This document shows positions 43,794 to 52,884 of a stretch of DNA of 64,000 bases, piece after piece. The notes beneath the pieces are model-generated. The model searched no databases and was not told the DNA's origin. It saw only the letters and a list, made by a program, of their open reading frames with translations. The DNA is from Flavobacteriaceae bacterium (GTDB lineage Bacteria; Bacteroidota; Bacteroidia; Flavobacteriales; Flavobacteriaceae). The stretch covers positions 2,760,321 through 2,824,320 of the forward strand of contig CP031964.1 in assembly GCA_003443635.1 (NCBI GenBank), written 5' to 3'. A program made the position numbers and the translations under genes. Each line of letters begins with the position of its first letter. Position 1 is the stretch's first letter.

Positions 43794-45191
43794 TTATTTA
43801 GTCAATAAGCTATCAATTACTTCCCATATTGTTTCAGATGCTTTTGCTGGTGCATCTCCTGCTACTATTTTAAACCATTTTGAGCCTTCTACTACGTTGG
43901 ATGTTTTCTTCTTTAAAGTGTTATCTACGATACTCTCTAAATCCTTTTTATCGGTACAGAAAATTACAGCTTCCTGACTTGGCATAGATCTAAAGTGTAC
44001 ATATTTATAATTCTGTCCTATATCTCTAATGCCTTTTTTAAGTTGTGGTTGTTCATAATTATAATAAACACAAGGTTTATTATGCACTACAAAATCAAAT
44101 ACTGTAGAGGAACACACATTGGTCACAAATTCACTGTGTTCACAAATGTTATATAACATTTTAAAATCTTCTTTTGCAGGTAAAACCTGATTCCATTGTC
44201 CTCCTATTTGCTTCCAAATTGGATCTATAACTTTAATAATATCATTATTTGATTCTATTACAGCATCATACCTCGATGTAAAATCTACAGGGCATTTTCT
44301 GTATATAATACCTAAATTTTCGCCTTCCTCATTGAGGTTTCTTACTACGTTTGCTAAGTCTTCTAAATAGTATTGATCTAATGGTGAAGTAGTTTCATCA
44401 TCTCCTGAATAGCAGATATATTTTTTGTCTTCGTCTAAATTATGTTCTTTAAAAAATTCTGATTTAGATTGTAATAAATTAGTATTATAATGAGGTTCAA
44501 ACTGTGGAGTTCCAGTAACAAAAACTTGTGATTCTTTTATAAAAGGGTAATATTTTAATACCTCACTCTTCATTAAATCACTCCATACAAAATAATAATC
44601 TGTTTCTACTACTTGCATAGCTTTAGGAACATTATCCCAAGAATATACAAAAGCTACTGTTAGAATACCTAAGTCTTTAGCTGCTAACAAAGCGCTTATA
44701 GATTGTGTAGCTCTTTGTGTCGTACAAAACACTATATCTGGTTTATGAATTTCTAATTGCGCTTTACAATATTTGTATTTTGAAGTAGAACGTTCTAAAG
44801 CATTAATTTTTTTACGAAGGTATATAACTCCTTTTTCTGAAGAATATAATCCTATTAATATCTTTGTATATATACTTTTAAAAATATTTTTTAAGCCTTT
44901 ATAATTAAATGGAAATTTATATGTGGTATATACGAAATCGTTAAACTTATCTCTAGACACATTTAATTCTGCACGCTTCCTGGCTCTAGTATAGATCGGT
45001 AATAATTTATGAGTTGTGTGATTCTCTATTTTTACTTCGTTAAAGCCTAAATCATCTTTTAATGAAAAAATGGTATTATTCCAATACTGAATATCAAACC
45101 CCATTCTCTCTCCTATGTTTTTAAAATCTGTGAATGCAAAATTTCTTAAGCCAACACCGTCAGGAAAAAAAACAAATATTTTTTTCTTCAT
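43794..45191 (-). CDS. putative GT-B-like transferase next to the nonulosonate genes
   Basis: I do not recognise a firm family. The 465-residue protein has two-domain GT-B character. The C-terminal ITNVCSSTVFDFVVHNKPCVYYNYEQP-like region (about 350-380) resembles the [ST]-[ST]-x-x-D donor loop of CDP-glycerol/poly-sialyl-type transferases. DIVFCTTQRATQSISALLAA and VFVTGTPQFEPHY look like the acceptor and inter-domain strands. It lies 20 bases after the NeuB-like gene on the same transcript, so transfer of the CMP-nonulosonic acid is the simplest hypothesis. It is not a match to known sialyltransferase families that I can confirm. Confidence 0.4.
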   Translation of the reverse strand: MKKKIFVFFPDGVGLRNFAFTDFKNIGERMGFDIQYWNNTIFSLKDDLGFNEVKIENHTTHKLLPIYTRARKRAELNVSRDKFNDFVYTTYKFPFNYKGLKNIFKSIYTKILIGLYSSEKGVIYLRKKINALERSTSKYKYCKAQLEIHKPDIVFCTTQRATQSISALLAAKDLGILTVAFVYSWDNVPKAMQVVETDYYFVWSDLMKSEVLKYYPFIKESQVFVTGTPQFEPHYNTNLLQSKSEFFKEHNLDEDKKYICYSGDDETTSPLDQYYLEDLANVVRNLNEEGENLGIIYRKCPVDFTSRYDAVIESNNDIIKVIDPIWKQIGGQWNQVLPAKEDFKMLYNICEHSEFVTNVCSSTVFDFVVHNKPCVYYNYEQPQLKKGIRDIGQNYKYVHFRSMPSQEAVIFCTDKKDLESIVDNTLKKKTSNVVEGSKWFKIVAGDAPAKASETIWEVIDSLLTK

Positions 45192-45211: not shown

Positions 45212-46087
45212 CTATCCTTTTTGGTTTTTTAATTTATCACGCTGTACTTGTTCTATTGGTAAAACATCTGAAGATTTAAACGATAAAGCTTTATATACTG
45301 CAGTTAAATCTCTAGATAATTTACGCAAGCCCATTGGTTCTAAAGATGCTGCATGATCAGTACCTTTCCAAGTACGGTCTATTGTATAATGTCTTTCTAC
45401 AATATTTGCTCCTAAAGTATAGGCAGCTACATCTACAGCTATACCTAAATGATGTCCAGAAAAACCTATATGCTTTACATCATCTTCATATTTATCAATT
45501 AATAAATTAATATCTAAAAGACATACATCATCAAAAGGTACTGGATAGCCCGATGTGCAATTATAAAGTACTAAGTCCTTATTTCTTTTATGTTTTTTAA
45601 ATAATTGCACCAAATTATCTATTTCGGTTTTGGTGGTCATTCCAGTGGAAATATGGAGTTCTCCTTTATAATTTTTGCATAACCATTCTAACATTCTTGT
45701 ATTATTGTTACATGCCGATGGTATTTTAATAAACTCTGGCTCTAAAGATGTAATTTCTTTAGCTGATGTTACATCCCAAACCGATGTAGCATATGTAATT
45801 CCTATCTCTTCACAATAACCTTTTAGTTCTTTATGCTGTTCTAAATTAAATTCCAAAAATTCTCTATGCGCTCCATATGTATTTCCATATGAGTTTATAG
45901 GGTTTGGGTGTGGTTGATTATATTGTTCTTCTGTTAAGAGTTCTTTATTATGTCGTTTTTGAAATTTAACAGCATCAACGTTACAAAATATTTTAGCTAC
46001 TTTAATTAATTCTTTAGCTATTGTTATTTCTCCTTTATGATTACAGCCTATTTCGGCAATGATGTAGGGTTTTTTATATGTATTCAT
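45212..46087 (-). CDS. neuB: NeuB-type nonulosonic acid synthase, short form
   Basis: The enzyme condenses phosphoenolpyruvate with a six-carbon sugar (ManNAc or a mannose phosphate) to give a nine-carbon acid. The 291-residue protein has AEIGCNHKG at 11-19, KFQKR at 41-45, SGHHLG at 210-215 and ERH at 231-233. H212 and H233 have the spacing of the metal-binding histidines of known NeuB. KGTDHAASLEP follows at 241-251. It ends at residue 291, whereas classical NeuB (about 345) carries an additional C-terminal SAF/antifreeze-like domain that lends an arginine to the neighbour's site. That domain is absent. Stop and start lie close to the fused cytidylyltransferase gene (five bases). Confidence 0.85.
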   Translation of the reverse strand: MNTYKKPYIIAEIGCNHKGEITIAKELIKVAKIFCNVDAVKFQKRHNKELLTEEQYNQPHPNPINSYGNTYGAHREFLEFNLEQHKELKGYCEEIGITYATSVWDVTSAKEITSLEPEFIKIPSACNNNTRMLEWLCKNYKGELHISTGMTTKTEIDNLVQLFKKHKRNKDLVLYNCTSGYPVPFDDVCLLDINLLIDKYEDDVKHIGFSGHHLGIAVDVAAYTLGANIVERHYTIDRTWKGTDHAASLEPMGLRKLSRDLTAVYKALSFKSSDVLPIEQVQRDKLKNQKG

Positions 46088-46092
46088 AAAAT

Positions 46093-47247
46093 CTAAAATC
46101 GTTTATTATAATTACTGATAAATTGACATGCTTCTCGAATAGCTCCAGCGCCAGAATTTTTTGATAATACTACATCTGCATTTTGTTTTACAATACTTGT
46201 TGCATTATTTGGTGCAAACGACCATCCTACACTACATATGTTAGTTAAGTCATTAACATCATCTCCAACATAAGCAACACTAGCTACTGATAAACTATTT
46301 TTTTCTGAAATATAATTTAATAATGTGTATTTATCTTTTACACCCAGATATACATTTTGAATGTTGAGTTTTTTCATACGTTTTGCAACTAACTCTGATT
46401 GTTCTGAGGTCATTACAATTACTTCAATATTAAACTGCCTTAAAATTTCAAGCCCCATGCCATCTCGCATATCAAACGTTTTAGACAACTCTCCTTCTTT
46501 ACTATAAGTCACAGTACCATCAGTAAATACACCATCTACATCTAATACTAAGTGTGTGATTTTTTTTGTTTCTTTTAATCGTTTTTGACGCTCAATTAAA
46601 AGATTTTCAACAATAATCCAGTCATTTTCAGAATCTATCTCATATAAAGATTCTTCTGGCATTTTTACAATAGCAATTTTACTTCCTAATCGATTTCCTG
46701 TACGCTTTAAAGATGCTTTGGTACTTGTATAAACAGCCCCATTTTCTATTAATAAACCATCAAAATTTTGACGCCTTGGTCTTTCTAATAAATTATAGTT
46801 TATTGGAGTACCATTTTCATTCCATAAAAAACGATGTGTTTTAACAACAGTTAGTACTGAATCGTAATCTTCTTTTAATTTTTCCAAGCAAGCATTGATA
46901 TGTTCGCGTTTGGTAAATGGTGATGTTGCTTGTAATAAGCAAAAGACATCAAAATTATAATCTATTTTTTTACAAAATTCTAATATCGCCATTTCTGTTG
47001 AAGCACTATCTGAAGCACTTTCTGCACTTCTCAATAACGCTTTAACTTTTGAGGTCCAATGATATTCTTTTCCTATAAAATCAATAATAGTTTGATCATC
47101 TGTATAAACGTAAATCTCATCTAAATTAGAAAAAATAGCTTCTCCTAAAACCCAAGTATATAATGGTCTACCAACCATTTTACGTTTATTTTTATTAAGC
47201 ACACCTTTAGAGCCTTTTCGCAATGGAATAAATCCTACTGTTTTCAT
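46093..47247 (-). CDS. neuA: CMP-nonulosonate synthetase fused to KdsC-type phosphatase
   Basis: The 384-residue protein fuses two enzymes. Residues 1-220 are a cytidylyltransferase activating a nonulosonic acid with CTP: LRKGSKGVLNKN at 9-20, LLQATSP at 104-110 and ENGAVY at 168-173. Residues 231-384 are a cap-less HAD phosphatase of the KdsC type: LDVDGVFTDGTVT with D236 and D238, then GDDVND at 328-333. This order matches animal CMAS proteins and some bacterial CMP-sialate synthetases. In a KDN-like route, the phosphatase half would remove the phosphate left by a NeuB acting on mannose 6-phosphate. The gene lies 90 bases after colD. Confidence 0.88.
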   Translation of the reverse strand: MKTVGFIPLRKGSKGVLNKNKRKMVGRPLYTWVLGEAIFSNLDEIYVYTDDQTIIDFIGKEYHWTSKVKALLRSAESASDSASTEMAILEFCKKIDYNFDVFCLLQATSPFTKREHINACLEKLKEDYDSVLTVVKTHRFLWNENGTPINYNLLERPRRQNFDGLLIENGAVYTSTKASLKRTGNRLGSKIAIVKMPEESLYEIDSENDWIIVENLLIERQKRLKETKKITHLVLDVDGVFTDGTVTYSKEGELSKTFDMRDGMGLEILRQFNIEVIVMTSEQSELVAKRMKKLNIQNVYLGVKDKYTLLNYISEKNSLSVASVAYVGDDVNDLTNICSVGWSFAPNNATSIVKQNADVVLSKNSGAGAIREACQFISNYNKRF

Positions 47248-47337: not shown

Positions 47338-48504
47338 TTATAATTCAGACAAAACTGTATATAGGTGTTTTATTTCTTCTTTTATAGGTGTTTGATGATT
47401 CCCGACAAATAAGCCGTTTTCATCTAAATATTTTGCGTTCTTCATTTCTCCAAAAATTTCGTAATCAAAATATTTCAAAACTTCATTTTTCGTAAAATCC
47501 CCAGTAACTATAGGTCTACAATCTATATTATTTTGTGTTAATTTTTCAACAACATCTTTACGTTTTAACTTAGATTCAGGTTTTATTATCAAACTAAAAC
47601 CAAACCAACTACTATGATCTATATTTGTCTGTGTATAGAAATCTTTATGATTTTTAAATAGAGTTTGAAACTGTATTGCATTTTTTCGTCTGTGCTTTAA
47701 AAAGTTTGGCAATTTCTTTAATTGTTGTTCACCTATTGCTCCACACATTTCTACAGGCCTTAGATTGTAGCCTGGTAAAACAAATCTAAAGGATTCTGTA
47801 AACCAATCATCAGATTTATTTATCACTTTATTTTCCTTTGGCAAATGTCTTGTCCAACCGTGTGCTCTTAAGCTAATTAGCACATGGTACAACTCTTCAT
47901 CATCTGTAACAATTAAACCACCTTCCATTGTTGCCATATGGTGAGAGAAAAATGTAGAAAATGTCCCCATTACTCCAAAAGTTCCTGTTTGCTTTTCTTT
48001 ATATTCTGCACCCATAGATTCACAATTATCTTCCAATAATAGAATATTACGCGTTCCAATAATATTTTGTATTGTATCAAAATCGTTAGGGTTTCCTAAC
48101 AGATTAACTGCAAATATCATTTTGGTATCTTTGGTAACAGCTTTTTCAAGTTGCTCTAAATCAAAATTTAAAGTTTGTAAATCAATATCTACAAATTTTA
48201 ATTTTAATCCGTATTGATATAGAGGGTAATATGTAGTAGACCAAGATACTGCTGGCACAATAACTTCATCTCCTTTTTTTAATTTTGGTTTTTTTGTGTA
48301 AAATAATGCTGCTATTGCCAGTAGGTTCGCTGAAGAACCCGAATTTACCATCACACAATGTTTAGAATCTACAAATGATGCAAACTCCGTTTCAAATTGT
48401 TTAACGTGTTTACCCATTGTATACATATCACTAGCTATAACTGCTTTAATAGCTTCTATCTCTTTATCATCCCAAGTAGATGTTGCTAGCGGATACTTTA
48501 TCAT
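47338..48504 (-). CDS. colD: GDP-4-keto-6-deoxy-D-mannose 3-dehydratase (ColD-type)
   Basis: ColD is a PLP-dependent enzyme that removes the 3-hydroxyl of GDP-4-keto-6-deoxy-mannose on the way to GDP-L-colitose. The 388-residue protein has the fold of DegT/DnrJ aminotransferases, but the usual PLP lysine is replaced by histidine in FFSHHMATMEGG; H188 is at the position of the catalytic base of E. coli ColD. PLATSTWDDKE, PAVSWSTTYYPL and LRAHGWTRHLPKE all fit ColD as I recall it. The neighbouring genes (ColC/Fcl type and gmd) are the matching pathway. The start overlaps the upstream stop (ATGA). Confidence 0.9.
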   Translation of the reverse strand: MIKYPLATSTWDDKEIEAIKAVIASDMYTMGKHVKQFETEFASFVDSKHCVMVNSGSSANLLAIAALFYTKKPKLKKGDEVIVPAVSWSTTYYPLYQYGLKLKFVDIDLQTLNFDLEQLEKAVTKDTKMIFAVNLLGNPNDFDTIQNIIGTRNILLLEDNCESMGAEYKEKQTGTFGVMGTFSTFFSHHMATMEGGLIVTDDEELYHVLISLRAHGWTRHLPKENKVINKSDDWFTESFRFVLPGYNLRPVEMCGAIGEQQLKKLPNFLKHRRKNAIQFQTLFKNHKDFYTQTNIDHSSWFGFSLIIKPESKLKRKDVVEKLTQNNIDCRPIVTGDFTKNEVLKYFDYEIFGEMKNAKYLDENGLFVGNHQTPIKEEIKHLYTVLSEL

Positions 48505-49424
48505 TCAATTACTTCTTTATAGTATTCATAAGTTTTTTTCAAACCTTCTTGTAATGTTGTTTTTGCTTTCCAACCAAAAATAGTTAATCTAGTATCATCT
48601 ATTAATTTTTGCGTCATACCAACTGGTTTACTTATATCATGTTTAAATGTACCTGTATAACCAATAACATTTGCTATTTCTTTATAATAGTCATTTATTG
48701 TGTAGTCATGACCTAATCCTACATTTATGTTTTGTGGCATTTTATGAAAATGTTCTATTGCATAAAAAATAAAATCCGCAAAATCTTCTGCATACATAAA
48801 TTCACGCCTTGCTTCTCCTGTTCCCCAAATAGTCACACTTTTTTCCGACTTAGTTTTAGCTTCATCAATTTTCCTGATTACTGCTGGTACCATATGTGAA
48901 TGTTCAAATGAAAATTTATCATATTTGCCATACAAATTACATGGTATTACTGTTTTATATTGGTAATAATTATTTTCTTTATTAATATACTCACATAATC
49001 TTGTCGATATAATTTTAGCAAGCGCATACCCTTCATTTGTTGGTTCTAGTTCGCCCTTCAAAATAAGATTCTCATTTAATGGATTAGTAGCTTCTCGAGG
49101 ATACATACAAGAACTAGATAAATTTATAAAATATTTTATTTTATTTTCTTTTGCAGCTAAAATCAAATTTCTACCCATATCCAAATTTTTAACTAAAAAA
49201 TTTACTGGGTTAGCTATATTATCTTGAATACCTCCCACTAATCCTGCTGCATGAATAATATAATCTGGGTGATGTAGTTTAATATATTTATTTACTTCCT
49301 TATAGTTCTCTAAATCTAATTGATTTCGAGATGGTGCTACTATATTATATTGTTTTGAATTGGCATTGAATTCGAGAATATTCTTCCCAACCATGCCACT
49401 CCCTCCTGTTAGTAAAATCTTCAT
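48501..49424 (-). CDS. colC: GDP-sugar epimerase-reductase (ColC/Fcl family)
   Basis: This 307-residue short-chain dehydrogenase belongs to the GDP-fucose synthase family. The nucleotide motif is MKILLTGGSGMVGKN and the catalytic site is SSSCMYP with YALAK as the Y-x3-K pair. The NVGLGHDYTINDYYKEIA segment is usual for the family. In E. coli O55 the equivalent ColC epimerises C5 and reduces C4 of the ColD product to GDP-L-colitose. Between colD and gmd that role is preferred over GDP-fucose synthesis. An upstream in-frame ATG (49436) would overlap gmd by 11 bases; the ATG at 49424 gives the normal MKILLTGG start. Confidence 0.85.
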   Translation of the reverse strand: MKILLTGGSGMVGKNILEFNANSKQYNIVAPSRNQLDLENYKEVNKYIKLHHPDYIIHAAGLVGGIQDNIANPVNFLVKNLDMGRNLILAAKENKIKYFINLSSSCMYPREATNPLNENLILKGELEPTNEGYALAKIISTRLCEYINKENNYYQYKTVIPCNLYGKYDKFSFEHSHMVPAVIRKIDEAKTKSEKSVTIWGTGEARREFMYAEDFADFIFYAIEHFHKMPQNINVGLGHDYTINDYYKEIANVIGYTGTFKHDISKPVGMTQKLIDDTRLTIFGWKAKTTLQEGLKKTYEYYKEVIE

Positions 49425-49425
49425 T

Positions 49426-50496
49426 TTATATAACATTCGATTTATATTTCACAACATAATCCAGGTCATGCTTCATCATCATTTTCACTAATCTTTCAAA
49501 TGATGTTTTATTTGGGTTCCAACCTAAATTCTTTTTTGCTTTAGATGGATCGCCTAAAAGTGTGTCAACTTCTGCTAACCTATAATAGTTAGAGTCAATT
49601 TCTATTAATACTTTTCCTGTTTTGCTACAAACTCCACATTCATTCTCATTTTCTCCTTCCCATTTCAATATTATATTTGCTTCAGCAAATGCTAGCTCAC
49701 AAAAATATCTTACTGTATGTTGTATTCCTGTACTTATAACATAATCTTCAGGAACGTCTTGCTGTAACATTAACCACATACATTCAACAAAATCTTTGGC
49801 ATACCCCCAATCCCTCTTAGCATTTAAGTTTCCTAAATATAATTTATCTTGAATACCGTGTACAATCCTAGCTGCTGCCAAGGTAATTTTACGTGTTACA
49901 AATGTTTCTCCTCTACGTTCAGATTCATGATTAAATAAAATACCATTTACAGCAAATATGTTATAGGATTCTCTATAATTTTTGGTAATCCAATAGGCAT
50001 ATAATTTTGCTACTCCATATGGAGATCGTGGATAAAAAGGAGTTGTTTCTGTTTGCGGAGTTTCTTGAACTTTACCATATAATTCTGAAGTTGACGCTTG
50101 ATAAATTTTAGTTTTCTTTTCTAAACCACAAATTCTAATTGCTTCCAAAAGTCGTAATGTTCCCATACCATCAGTTTCTGCTGTATACTCTGGCATATCA
50201 AAAGATACTTTTACATGAGATTGTGCTGCTAAATTATAAATTTCGTCCGGCTGAATTTGCTGTACCAATCTAATAAGATTTGTAGCATCTGTCATATCTC
50301 CGTAATGTAACTTAATACTCTGCTTTTGATGCAAATCTTTTAAAAGTGTGTCTATATATAAATGCTCAATACGCTCTGTATTAAATGTAGAGCTTCGTCT
50401 TATTACTCCATGAACTTTATAACTCTTACTTATTAACAACTCTGCTAAGTATGAACCATCTTGGCCATTTATTCCTGTAATTAAAGCTGTTTTCAT
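49426..50496 (-). CDS. gmd: GDP-mannose 4,6-dehydratase
   Basis: Gmd converts GDP-mannose to GDP-4-keto-6-deoxy-mannose, the shared precursor of GDP-fucose, GDP-rhamnose and GDP-colitose. The 356-residue protein has the nucleotide motif [33 protein letters not shown]-like [21 protein letters not shown], the catalytic Y-x3-K in [10 protein letters not shown] and [17 protein letters not shown]. Length and motifs are standard. It heads a three-gene module with colC and colD. GDP-mannose supply genes (manB/manC) are not in the window. Confidence 0.96.
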
Positions 50497-50539: not shown

Positions 50540-51442
50540 TTAATTACTGTTATTAATAAAAGTACTTACTTCTGAAGTAAATATTTCAGCGCCGTTTTTC
50601 ATTAAATGAGATACATCTCTATAGTAAGATTCATTTTTATATACAGGATTCAAAGTATCGTATATCATTATTTTATTTTCCTGTTGAACTAATTCATTAA
50701 ATCGATTTAAAAAACTAGTATTAAATATTCTATAATTAGGTGGAAAAATGAATATTAATTCAATTTGATTGGATTTGCATAATTCTTGAATTCTTGAAAA
50801 AGCATGCAGTTTTTCTTTTTGTTCAAATTCTGTAGAATACTTTTCAAAAGTACTCTTATAAGTCATTTTAGAGTTTCCTTTTGACAAAATAACTTTAGAA
50901 CCAAACGCTGTCATTTTATTTATTGGTAAAACATTATTTTTTTTCAAATTAAAATCTTTTCGATTTACTCTCGATAAACAAAAGATTTTAGACAATACAT
51001 TTTTATTTCCTCTTCTAATAAGTTCATTATTAATGTAATTATATTTTTTTAATGGAGATAATCTATCGATTCTAAACTTTAATGTTGGCTCATAATTAAA
51101 CTCATAAATATCGTCAATAATGAGTATAACTTTTTTAGGTTTTGTATTAAACTTTAATAGGGTTTTTAATAAAAACTCTTGAAACACTATATCTGCTCCT
51201 CTATAAGATAAATTATACGATGTTAAGCCTGTCTCATTTTGTAACTGTTCTGCAATAATATTATTAGCGCCGCGAGATGAACCTAAAACAATAAGGTTTT
51301 TATTCATTTCTCCTTTTAATATATATTCTAATCGTTTATCGTATTCTTTATTTGGCGCATTAGCAATAAAAAAATAAATACTCTTTTCAACAATAAAAAA
51401 AAGGGCACTAAAAACTACAATATTTAAAAGAAATTTTTTCAT
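50540..51442 (-). CDS. SGNH-like accessory protein paired with MBOAT
   Basis: This 300-residue protein has an N-terminal membrane anchor (residues 5-28) and then a domain with SGNH-hydrolase shape. LIVLGSSRGANNI provides the GSS block, LIFIFPPNYRIF is the middle strand and YYRDVSHLMKNGAEI gives the D-x-x-H pair. In alginate, DltD and similar systems, proteins of this kind work beside an MBOAT acyltransferase to place acyl groups on glycans outside the membrane. It starts two bases after the MBOAT gene. The serine hydrolase activity is inferred. Confidence 0.7.
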   Translation of the reverse strand: MKKFLLNIVVFSALFFIVEKSIYFFIANAPNKEYDKRLEYILKGEMNKNLIVLGSSRGANNIIAEQLQNETGLTSYNLSYRGADIVFQEFLLKTLLKFNTKPKKVILIIDDIYEFNYEPTLKFRIDRLSPLKKYNYINNELIRRGNKNVLSKIFCLSRVNRKDFNLKKNNVLPINKMTAFGSKVILSKGNSKMTYKSTFEKYSTEFEQKEKLHAFSRIQELCKSNQIELIFIFPPNYRIFNTSFLNRFNELVQQENKIMIYDTLNPVYKNESYYRDVSHLMKNGAEIFTSEVSTFINNSN

Positions 51443-51444
51443 TC

Positions 51445-52884
51445 TTAAAATTGAAAGTAAATAAACTCTTGTTCAACATTACTGCTATAAATAAAAATAC
51501 AAGCAATTAATATCATATAAAATGTCCATCTAAAAAATTTATGCCTGGCTAAAAACATATTACTTATTGCATATTTTTGATCTCTACCAAACCATTCTAT
51601 TATCATAAAAACCATAATTAAAACCATTACATCCAAAGGTCTGATTTCTGGAATTCTAAAAAATGATGATGTAAAGATTTCTTTTATAAAACTAAAAGCA
51701 TGGGTAATCGATTCTGCTCTAAAAAAAATCCATGCAAACACTGTTAAACTAAACGTTATACCTATAGAAATAACTTCTCTAAAGCTCGGTAATAAAGTTT
51801 TCTGAGCAACGTTATCAAGGTATTTTCTGTTTTTTTTAGCAAGTAATAATGGTAAAAAATAAAGCGCATTTAAAAACCCCCAAGCAATAAACGTCCAATT
51901 TGCTCCATGCCAAAATCCACTTACTAAAAATATAATAAATGTATTTCTAATTTTCATCCAAATACTTCCTTGACTCCCTCCTAATGGAATATATAAATAA
52001 TCTCTAAACCATGTAGATAACGAAATATGCCAACGTCTCCAAAACTCTGCTATATTTCTAGAAAAATACGGAAAAGCAAAGTTTTGTTTTAAATCAAAAC
52101 CAAACAATCTAGAAGTACCAATAGCTATATCTGAATAACCTGAAAAATCACCGTAAATTTGAAATGCAAAAAATAAAGCTCCAAAAAATAAAGTACTTCC
52201 TGAATAGTCTTCTGAGTTATTAAAAATTATATTAGCATATTTCGCACAATTATCTGCTATAACTATTTTTTTAAATAATCCCCACAAAATCTGACGCAAA
52301 CCATCAATAGCTTTAGAATAATGAAACTCTCTTTTATCATAAAATTGGGGTAATAAATTTGTAGCTCGTTCTATTGGACCTGCAACTAATTGTGGAAAGA
52401 AACTAACAAATGCTAAAAATGAGGCTATATCTCTTGTAGGTTCTAACTTTCGTTTATAAACATCTATAGTATAGCTTAATGTTTGAAATGTATAAAAACT
52501 AATCCCTACAGGAAGAATTATATTTAGCGTATTTGGAGATATTTTACTTCCAAAAAATGAAAAAGCCTCGACAAAATTATCTATAAAGAAATTGTAATAT
52601 TTAAAAAATCCTAAAAATCCTAAATTCACACAAATACTTATCCATAGTAATTGTTTTCGTTTATTAGGATTATTTTCTTTAGATAAACTTAATCCAATAA
52701 CATAATCTAATAATGAGCTAAAAATAATTAGAGATAAAAAACGCCAATCCCACCAGCCATAAAACACATAACTTGCAATTATTAAAAGTATGTTTTGAAA
52801 CCTTAGATTGGATTTGAAAACAAACCAATACAATACAAATATTATTGGCAAAAAAACAGCAAAGTCTAAAGAGTTAAATAACAT
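51445..52884 (-). CDS. MBOAT family O-acyltransferase (AlgI-like)
   Basis: This 479-residue polytopic protein is an MBOAT enzyme that moves acyl groups (commonly acetyl) across or at the membrane for glycan O-acylation. Markers are SYVFYGWWDWRFLSLI, FFPQLVAGPIERATNLLPQF, EFWRRWHISLSTWFRDYLYIPLGGS and the catalytic histidine in SGFWHGANWTFIAWG. About ten to eleven helices can be seen. The adjacent SGNH-like gene makes it an AlgI/AlgJ-type pair. The acylated residue is unknown. Confidence 0.93.
   Translation of the reverse strand: MLFNSLDFAVFLPIIFVLYWFVFKSNLRFQNILLIIASYVFYGWWDWRFLSLIIFSSLLDYVIGLSLSKENNPNKRKQLLWISICVNLGFLGFFKYYNFFIDNFVEAFSFFGSKISPNTLNIILPVGISFYTFQTLSYTIDVYKRKLEPTRDIASFLAFVSFFPQLVAGPIERATNLLPQFYDKREFHYSKAIDGLRQILWGLFKKIVIADNCAKYANIIFNNSEDYSGSTLFFGALFFAFQIYGDFSGYSDIAIGTSRLFGFDLKQNFAFPYFSRNIAEFWRRWHISLSTWFRDYLYIPLGGSQGSIWMKIRNTFIIFLVSGFWHGANWTFIAWGFLNALYFLPLLLAKKNRKYLDNVAQKTLLPSFREVISIGITFSLTVFAWIFFRAESITHAFSFIKEIFTSSFFRIPEIRPLDVMVLIMVFMIIEWFGRDQKYAISNMFLARHKFFRWTFYMILIACIFIYSSNVEQEFIYFQF

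Follow-up and report, generated by a model that had tools for sequence, protein, structure and literature searches.

A SAF-less NeuB-type synthase and a cytidylyltransferase-phosphatase fusion as a predicted Kdn module in a Flavobacteriaceae surface-polysaccharide locus

The locus described here raises the question of which nonulosonic acid could be made by a NeuB-type synthase that ends without the C-terminal SAF domain and is encoded beside a cytidylyltransferase fused to a KdsC-type phosphatase. Both genes lie on the minus strand of the window (the whole 64,000-nucleotide stretch of a Flavobacteriaceae genome that was analysed), the fusion gene upstream of neuB with 5 bases between them, and are surrounded by a run of minus-strand open reading frames, most of the scanned ones being glycosyltransferase or sugar genes. 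Judged from the sequences, they quite probably form a two-gene Kdn module within a surface-polysaccharide locus. The features concerned are as follows.

43794..45191, minus strand: GT-B glycosyltransferase of 465 aa (labelled GT43 here), the gene after neuB, candidate CMP-Kdn transferase
45212..46087, minus strand: SAF-less NeuB-type synthase of 291 aa, predicted Kdn-9-phosphate synthase (mannose 6-phosphate + PEP)
46093..47247, minus strand: fusion protein of 384 aa with CTP_transf_3 and KdsC-type domains, predicted CMP-Kdn synthetase and Kdn-9-phosphate phosphatase
46582..47247, minus strand: cytidylyltransferase domain of the fusion (residues 1-222), top solved relative 9t4z ('PpNeuA', E = 3.1e-40)
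46108..46566, minus strand: phosphatase domain of the fusion (residues about 228-380), TIGR01670, with the motifs DVDGVFTDG and GDD and with Glu/Lys at 3e81 positions 56/67

In the proposed pathway, the SAF-less NeuB would produce Kdn-9-phosphate by condensing PEP and mannose 6-phosphate. The fusion would then act twice: its C-terminal phosphatase domain would take off the 9-phosphate, and its N-terminal domain would convert Kdn and CTP into CMP-Kdn. A glycosyltransferase, most likely that encoded at 43794-45191, would attach Kdn to the polysaccharide.

The synthase matches the Pfam NeuB domain (PF03102) over residues 27-269 (224.8 bits against a cut-off of 22.1) and stops right after the NeuB barrel with no SAF match in the Pfam scan, in agreement with the first-pass annotation, which had described a NeuB-like protein of 291 residues lacking the C-terminal SAF domain. 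A truncated or split neuB gene is ruled out because the orthologs stop at the same place and the genome contains no SAF gene. Among the best 80 named orthologs, 53 are exactly 291 aa long and 78 measure 289-297 aa, the remaining two having 300 and 319 aa. The genome itself, one contig of 3.35 Mb that is 99.99% complete, encodes a single NeuB, and the SAF search, which was positive in 8 of 14 control genomes, returned no match anywhere in it; the separately encoded SAF domain for which the first-pass annotation had allowed was thus not found. Fourteen active-site positions were compared with Neisseria meningitidis NeuB, including Lys53, His236, and Asp247, which we take to be active-site positions of that enzyme. 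The window synthase is identical at 11 of them and changed at three (Thr110 to Ser102, Phe112 to Trp104, and Asn184 to Ser179, N. meningitidis numbering first), and on this comparison its barrel looks catalytically competent, the sole missing active-site residue being Arg314, which SAF supplies. Apart from the three positions named above, the residue set was drawn from the available portion of PMC6795526. The AlphaFold2 model of the synthase (pLDDT 87.5) has 1xuu and 6ncs as its top PDB matches. The protein fails the N-acetylneuraminate synthase NeuB/NnaB equivalog TIGR03569 (196.6 bits against a cut-off of 399.65), on which the NeuC-linked synthase of locus L134 scores 513.8, and the SAF domain with Arg314 that belongs to the TIGR03569 type is absent from the window synthase and from its genome.

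The combination of SAF-less NeuB and fusion is a conserved design. Orthologs of the synthase at 62-100% identity occur in 34 of 199 family genomes (its own included), and since the next best family matches reach at most 43% identity, most of them in longer frames, this occurrence exceeds chance; in the phylum, 11 of 395 genomes, again including its own, carry an ortholog at 62% identity or above. A tree of about 46 synthases separates the clade on a long branch with a support of 1.00, and most pairings of the clade synthase with a Bacteroidota synthase from elsewhere give only 32-39% identity. The fusion lies within 1.1 kb of neuB in 30 of the 33 orthologous family loci that were fetched, the exceptions being L061 and L069 with a cytidylyltransferase alone and L067 with a separate phosphatase 3.4 kb away. 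It is likewise present in 79 of the best 80 named loci (contig scan) and, when all loci are pooled and duplicates removed, in 105 of 110 distinct ones; an unfused or split phosphatase takes its place in three loci (L067, L152, and L202). Non-pathogenic species that carry the module include Algibacter lectus and Olleya marilimosa CAM030.

Several other arrangements were observed. The genome of L061 (G087) has a second fusion elsewhere, away from its NeuB (L239:1483-2610), where the neighbours resemble Sua5 and CCA genes and one weakly matches a Kdo kinase. In Flavobacterium covae AL-02-36 (L202), the single exception among the 80 named loci, the fusion is divided into two open reading frames and the gene that follows is reduced to a fragment, so that the locus is either broken or misassembled. 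A group of eight loci (L062, L063, L064, L223, L229-L231, and L233) carries the module amid housekeeping genes, beside a GT2 gene and a polyST/GT52-type gene, with dapD-like, Sua5, and CCA-type nucleotidyltransferase genes in L064, and this arrangement is possibly an LPS-core setting. A second group of SAF-less synthases (L088-L100 and similar), about 36-39% identical to that of the window, occurs in other Bacteroidota and nearly always has a phosphatase adjacent. Other fusions include cytidylyltransferase-NeuB-SAF proteins (L070:7869-9614, 581 aa; L085:1288-3081, 597 aa) and a phosphatase-NeuB protein of 475 aa without SAF (L092:1393-2820).

The domain composition of the fusion was assigned correctly in the first-pass annotation as a CMP-synthetase carrying a KdsC-type phosphatase: CTP_transf_3 covers residues 6-224 in the Pfam scan, and TIGR01670 covers residues 232-380 with 138.2 bits, above the cut-off of 106.95. 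The catalytic motifs of KdsC-type phosphatases are intact in the window fusion, where Asp236 is the predicted nucleophile, and, by pattern search, in 106 of 107 distinct fusions, the remaining one missing the first phosphatase motif. With regard to specificity, 3e81 is presumably the Kdn-9-phosphate phosphatase of Bacteroides thetaiotaomicron, and Lu in 2009 and Daughtry in 2013 are said to have addressed the role of Glu56 and Lys67 in this enzyme; in entry 4hgq this chain carries Ala at position 56, and in entry 4hgr at both 56 and 67. The fused phosphatase of the window has the Glu/Lys pair, and so do all 107 distinct fusions, both unfused phosphatases of the clade, and all 31 phosphatases linked to other NeuBs (13 SAF-bearing and 18 SAF-less as split by open reading frame length, some of the NeuB frames being cut by locus ends). 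The pair occurs in none of 26 family KdsC proteins without NeuB, the genome's own KdsC included, all of which have Gly at position 56; a 27th row, L247, was left out of this set because it belongs to the clade locus L067, whose NeuB lies 3.4 kb away from this phosphatase. The pair is not exclusive to NeuB-linked phosphatases, because it is also carried by 8 of 16 Bacteroidota phosphatases without NeuB in a 3.4-kb locus, which had been chosen as high scorers on NF058599 and whose pair carriers include a clade locus (L111). On NF058599, the equivalog for Kdn-9-phosphate phosphatase, the window domain fails with 129 bits against a cut-off of 180; the fused domains of relatives in G283 (192.7) and G264 (182) and the unfused relative in G379 (185.2) pass, and those in G403 (177) and G365 (176.2) fall just below.

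These data also bear on the possibility that a different phosphorylated aldose is used and that the product is another 3-deoxy-2-ulosonic acid, either a nonulosonate other than Kdn and Neu5Ac or an octulosonate. Such a product would fit a clade so clearly set apart (at least 62% identity inside and at most 43% outside, on a long and fully supported branch), whose phosphatase domains have diverged from the Bacteroides type, but the Glu56/Lys67 pair and the relatives' scores near the NF058599 cut-off favour Kdn-9-phosphate, and this alternative is considered rather improbable.

The gene content of the genome also bears on the choice of substrate. NeuC is absent from it at E ≤ 1e-40, and the two Epimerase_2 genes that it contains both score above the WecB cut-off and below the NeuC cut-off, so that the earlier remark that no NeuC is near holds for the genome as a whole. 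NanE was not found in this genome either, and a separate KdsC, for Kdo, is kept apart from the fusion. Across the family, NeuC over its cut-off is present in 2 of 34 genomes with a clade synthase versus 13 of 18 with only other, SAF-bearing NeuBs, the figure for genomes lacking NeuB being 46 of 147 (Fisher P = 1e-6 for the first comparison and 4e-4 against all other genomes, kinship being ignored in both). The two clade-synthase genomes with NeuC are G031 and G010, the latter having it next to an additional NeuB that bears SAF.

The synthases themselves point in the same direction. In the available portion of PMC6795526, Arg314 is described as the sole residue that SAF contributes to the active site of NeuB, where it contacts ManNAc, and the R314A variant of NeuB as inactive (PMC6795526). 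At the corresponding position, with the alignment register checked against 1xuu, 4ipi, and 4ipj, Arg is found in all nine NeuC-linked synthases and in three other SAF synthases, and Ser in all 11 phosphatase-linked SAF-bearing synthases, in both cytidylyltransferase-NeuB-SAF fusions, and in L101; no residue could be read in other_L139, which has 631 aa and a different C-terminus. In the window clade, SAF is gone entirely and Arg314 with it. From the aligned sequences, we infer that a substrate without an acetamido group, namely mannose 6-phosphate, may underlie both the Ser at this position and the loss of SAF, since Arg314 would grip the N-acetyl group of ManNAc, which is absent from mannose. 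A second sequence feature, the motif G.[TS]YG.H[RK]..LE, is shared by 15 of 15 clade members and by all 11 SAF-bearing synthases that adjoin a phosphatase, and it is found in none of the nine NeuC-linked synthases and none of three others; of the eight SAF-less synthases of the Bacteroidales type, all have a looser form and none the strict one. The absence of SAF is in itself not a signature of Kdn, because the synthases adjoining phosphatases above the NF058599 cut-off (L105, L106, and L107), which are of the Bacteroides type, bear SAF.

An animal-style route from ManNAc-6-phosphate through Neu5Ac-9-phosphate to CMP-Neu5Ac is judged unlikely in the light of these observations. The loss of Arg314 alone is no bar to ManNAc-6-phosphate, as the human enzyme, apparently without Arg at this position, produces Neu5Ac-9-phosphate, and the phosphatase and the YG.H motif would be compatible with any 9-phosphate. 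The order of enzymes is also that of the human route as given in the available text of PMC6200933, but the genome has neither NeuC nor NanE as a source of ManNAc or ManNAc-6-phosphate, Arg314 was lost along with SAF, and the synthase lies far below the cut-off of the N-acetylneuraminate synthase model. That the fused phosphatase domain is a mere structural platform and the synthase uses free sugars, as might be supposed from vertebrate CMP-sialic acid synthetases, which share the domain order and in which phosphatase activity was not found according to the available text of PMC8636478, is highly improbable in view of the intact catalytic motifs in nearly all fusions and the unfused or split phosphatase that replaces the fusion in three loci.

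The phosphorylated Kdn route is therefore favoured on the grounds of the Glu/Lys pair, the loss of Arg314, the shared synthase motif, the absence of SAF, NeuC, and NanE, and the separate KdsC, while the score of the window phosphatase below the NF058599 cut-off counts on the other side. The path from mannose 6-phosphate through Kdn-9-phosphate and Kdn to CMP-Kdn, as put forward in the first-pass annotation, remains the best reading and is probably right, whereas the missing SAF domain can no longer serve as its marker.

The protein encoded at 43794-45191 is a candidate CMP-Kdn transferase. Its model has a GT-B fold (pLDDT 87.8), and it bears a weak signature of CDP-glycerol glycerophosphotransferases (PF04464), which is its only Pfam match and is found in 14 of 18 relatives; in that family CMP is the leaving group, as in sialyl transfer. 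Pfam gave no match in this protein to the known CMP-sialyltransferase families GT52 and polyST, and sialyltransferase chains were absent from its best 50 fold matches, which excludes nothing. Homologs are present in 25 of 33 family loci and 90 of 110 pooled distinct loci; a polysialyltransferase/GT52-type gene is adjacent instead in 8 of the 110, both genes occur together in none, and both are missing from 12, of which two are cut by contig ends. When the replacement genes were scanned in three loci, PF07388 was over its cut-off in all three and PF07922 in one, the rest being homologs at 68% identity or above. This swap is suggestive rather than statistical, since it could reflect one or two events.

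The possibility of a hidden NeuC was considered for the same protein because its top fold matches are UDP-GlcNAc 2-epimerases (5xvs_A, Z 24.8, rmsd 3.2, 322 aligned). WecB/NeuC epimerases have acidic catalytic residues, and the profile alignment (probability 77) places Gln159, Val182, and Lys190 where acids are expected, so that an epimerase function was rejected. On the BFO_1060 glycosyltransferase model NF046086, the protein scores 45.8 bits, below the cut-off of 200, and this family was discarded as a marker for nonulosonate transferases in general, as a NeuB homolog lay within the fetched stretch in only 1 of 12 over-cut-off loci (L275). In that locus (L275:1-3635), a curated pseudaminic acid synthase (PseI) is followed by the BFO_1060-family gene and then, two genes after the synthase, by a distant homolog of the candidate transferase (23%, E = 4e-27). 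A polysaccharide pyruvyl transferase gene lies between NeuB and the candidate transferase in 13 of 33 loci (e.g., L037:8297-9118).

Upstream of the module, the following genes were identified.

47338..48504, minus strand: ColD-type GDP-4-keto-6-deoxymannose 3-dehydratase (PDB ColD/WbdK entries, E about 1e-168), a variable neighbour
48501..49436, minus strand: Fcl/ColC-type epimerase-reductase (NF047922, 306 bits, under the cut-off of 500), a variable neighbour
49426..50496, minus strand: Gmd, GDP-mannose 4,6-dehydratase (TIGR01472, 575 bits, over the cut-off of 415)
51445-52884: MBOAT O-acyltransferase, about 4 kb upstream of the module

The three genes at 47338-50496, directly upstream, constitute a predicted GDP-colitose pathway, and two of the 33 orthologous loci, L048 and L052, have the same trio upstream. 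The presence of gmd implies a pool of GDP-mannose and, by inference, of mannose 6-phosphate. The MBOAT gene and a partner gene occupy 50540-52884. Several of the other loci likewise have homologs close to the module, so O-acylation of the polysaccharide is possible. The first-pass statement that no acetyltransferase is near is accordingly correct for NeuD-type N-acetyltransferases, which are absent among the ten neighbours scanned, and does not extend to this O-acyltransferase.

Comparable systems are known from other organisms. The Kdn pathway of B. thetaiotaomicron, reportedly described by Wang in 2008, is said to consist of a Kdn-9-phosphate synthase, a Kdn-9-phosphate phosphatase, and a CMP-Kdn synthetase. 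The same three activities are predicted here, with a phosphatase of the same family and the same Glu/Lys pair, but the B. thetaiotaomicron phosphatase is a separate chain of 164 residues (3e81), the comparison concerns the phosphatase and not the synthase sequence, and the phosphatases found closest to this type adjoin SAF-bearing synthases, unlike that of the window. The Leptospira borgpetersenii N-acetylneuraminic acid synthetase 6ncs is similarly a NeuB barrel in a 290-residue chain and tops the PDB sequence search (E = 1.7e-25), although it is only about 28% identical to the window synthase over the fold match. The alga Prymnesium parvum, presumably the source of the PpNeuA structure 9t4z that the cytidylyltransferase domain matches best, also has a phosphorylated Kdn route with a Kdn-9-phosphate synthase and a CMP-Kdn synthetase; according to the available text, however, a phosphatase homolog was not found and a C-terminal transmembrane domain replaces the phosphatase domain (PMC6200933). 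Vertebrate CMP-sialic acid synthetases likewise have a cytidylyltransferase followed by a KdsC-like HAD domain, which is reported in the available text to be without phosphatase activity (PMC8636478), whereas the bacterial domain retains its catalytic motifs. In the Serratia marcescens KL1/KL2 capsule, Kdn in a bacterial polysaccharide also requires genes of a neuB-containing locus, but Kdn and Neu5Ac occur at about 20:1 and the text found mentions no phosphatase (PMC9000132).

The Kdn pathway and, elsewhere, the fusion architecture are thus already known, and what is new is the SAF-free synthase with a synthetase-phosphatase fusion that is catalytically intact by its motifs, the breadth of the module in the Flavobacteriaceae, and the candidate transferase. 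None of the literature matches listed names Kdn in this family, which is no proof of its absence. If the reading is true, an adjacent or fused phosphatase, the absence of Arg314, and the lack of NeuC would provide a sequence rule that distinguishes makers of Kdn from those of Neu5Ac, Leg, and Pse, and it would be explained why some NeuB enzymes dispense with SAF. In addition, the fusion would offer a one-protein route from Kdn-9-phosphate to CMP-Kdn of use in glycochemistry and a working relative for the unexplained C-domain of vertebrate CMP-sialic acid synthetase, and a new family of nonulosonate transferases would be nominated. Taken as a whole, and held only tentatively, the joint proposal is that SAF became dispensable after the loss of Arg in phosphatase-linked lineages, that the bacterial fusion represents the catalytic state from which the silent vertebrate C-domain could derive, that the adjoining GT-B proteins represent a novel type of CMP-Kdn (CMP-nonulosonate) transferase, and that a distinct clade of SAF-free Kdn-9-phosphate synthases, together with a bifunctional CMP-Kdn synthetase/Kdn-9-phosphate phosphatase, would make Kdn a common surface sugar of the Flavobacteriaceae.
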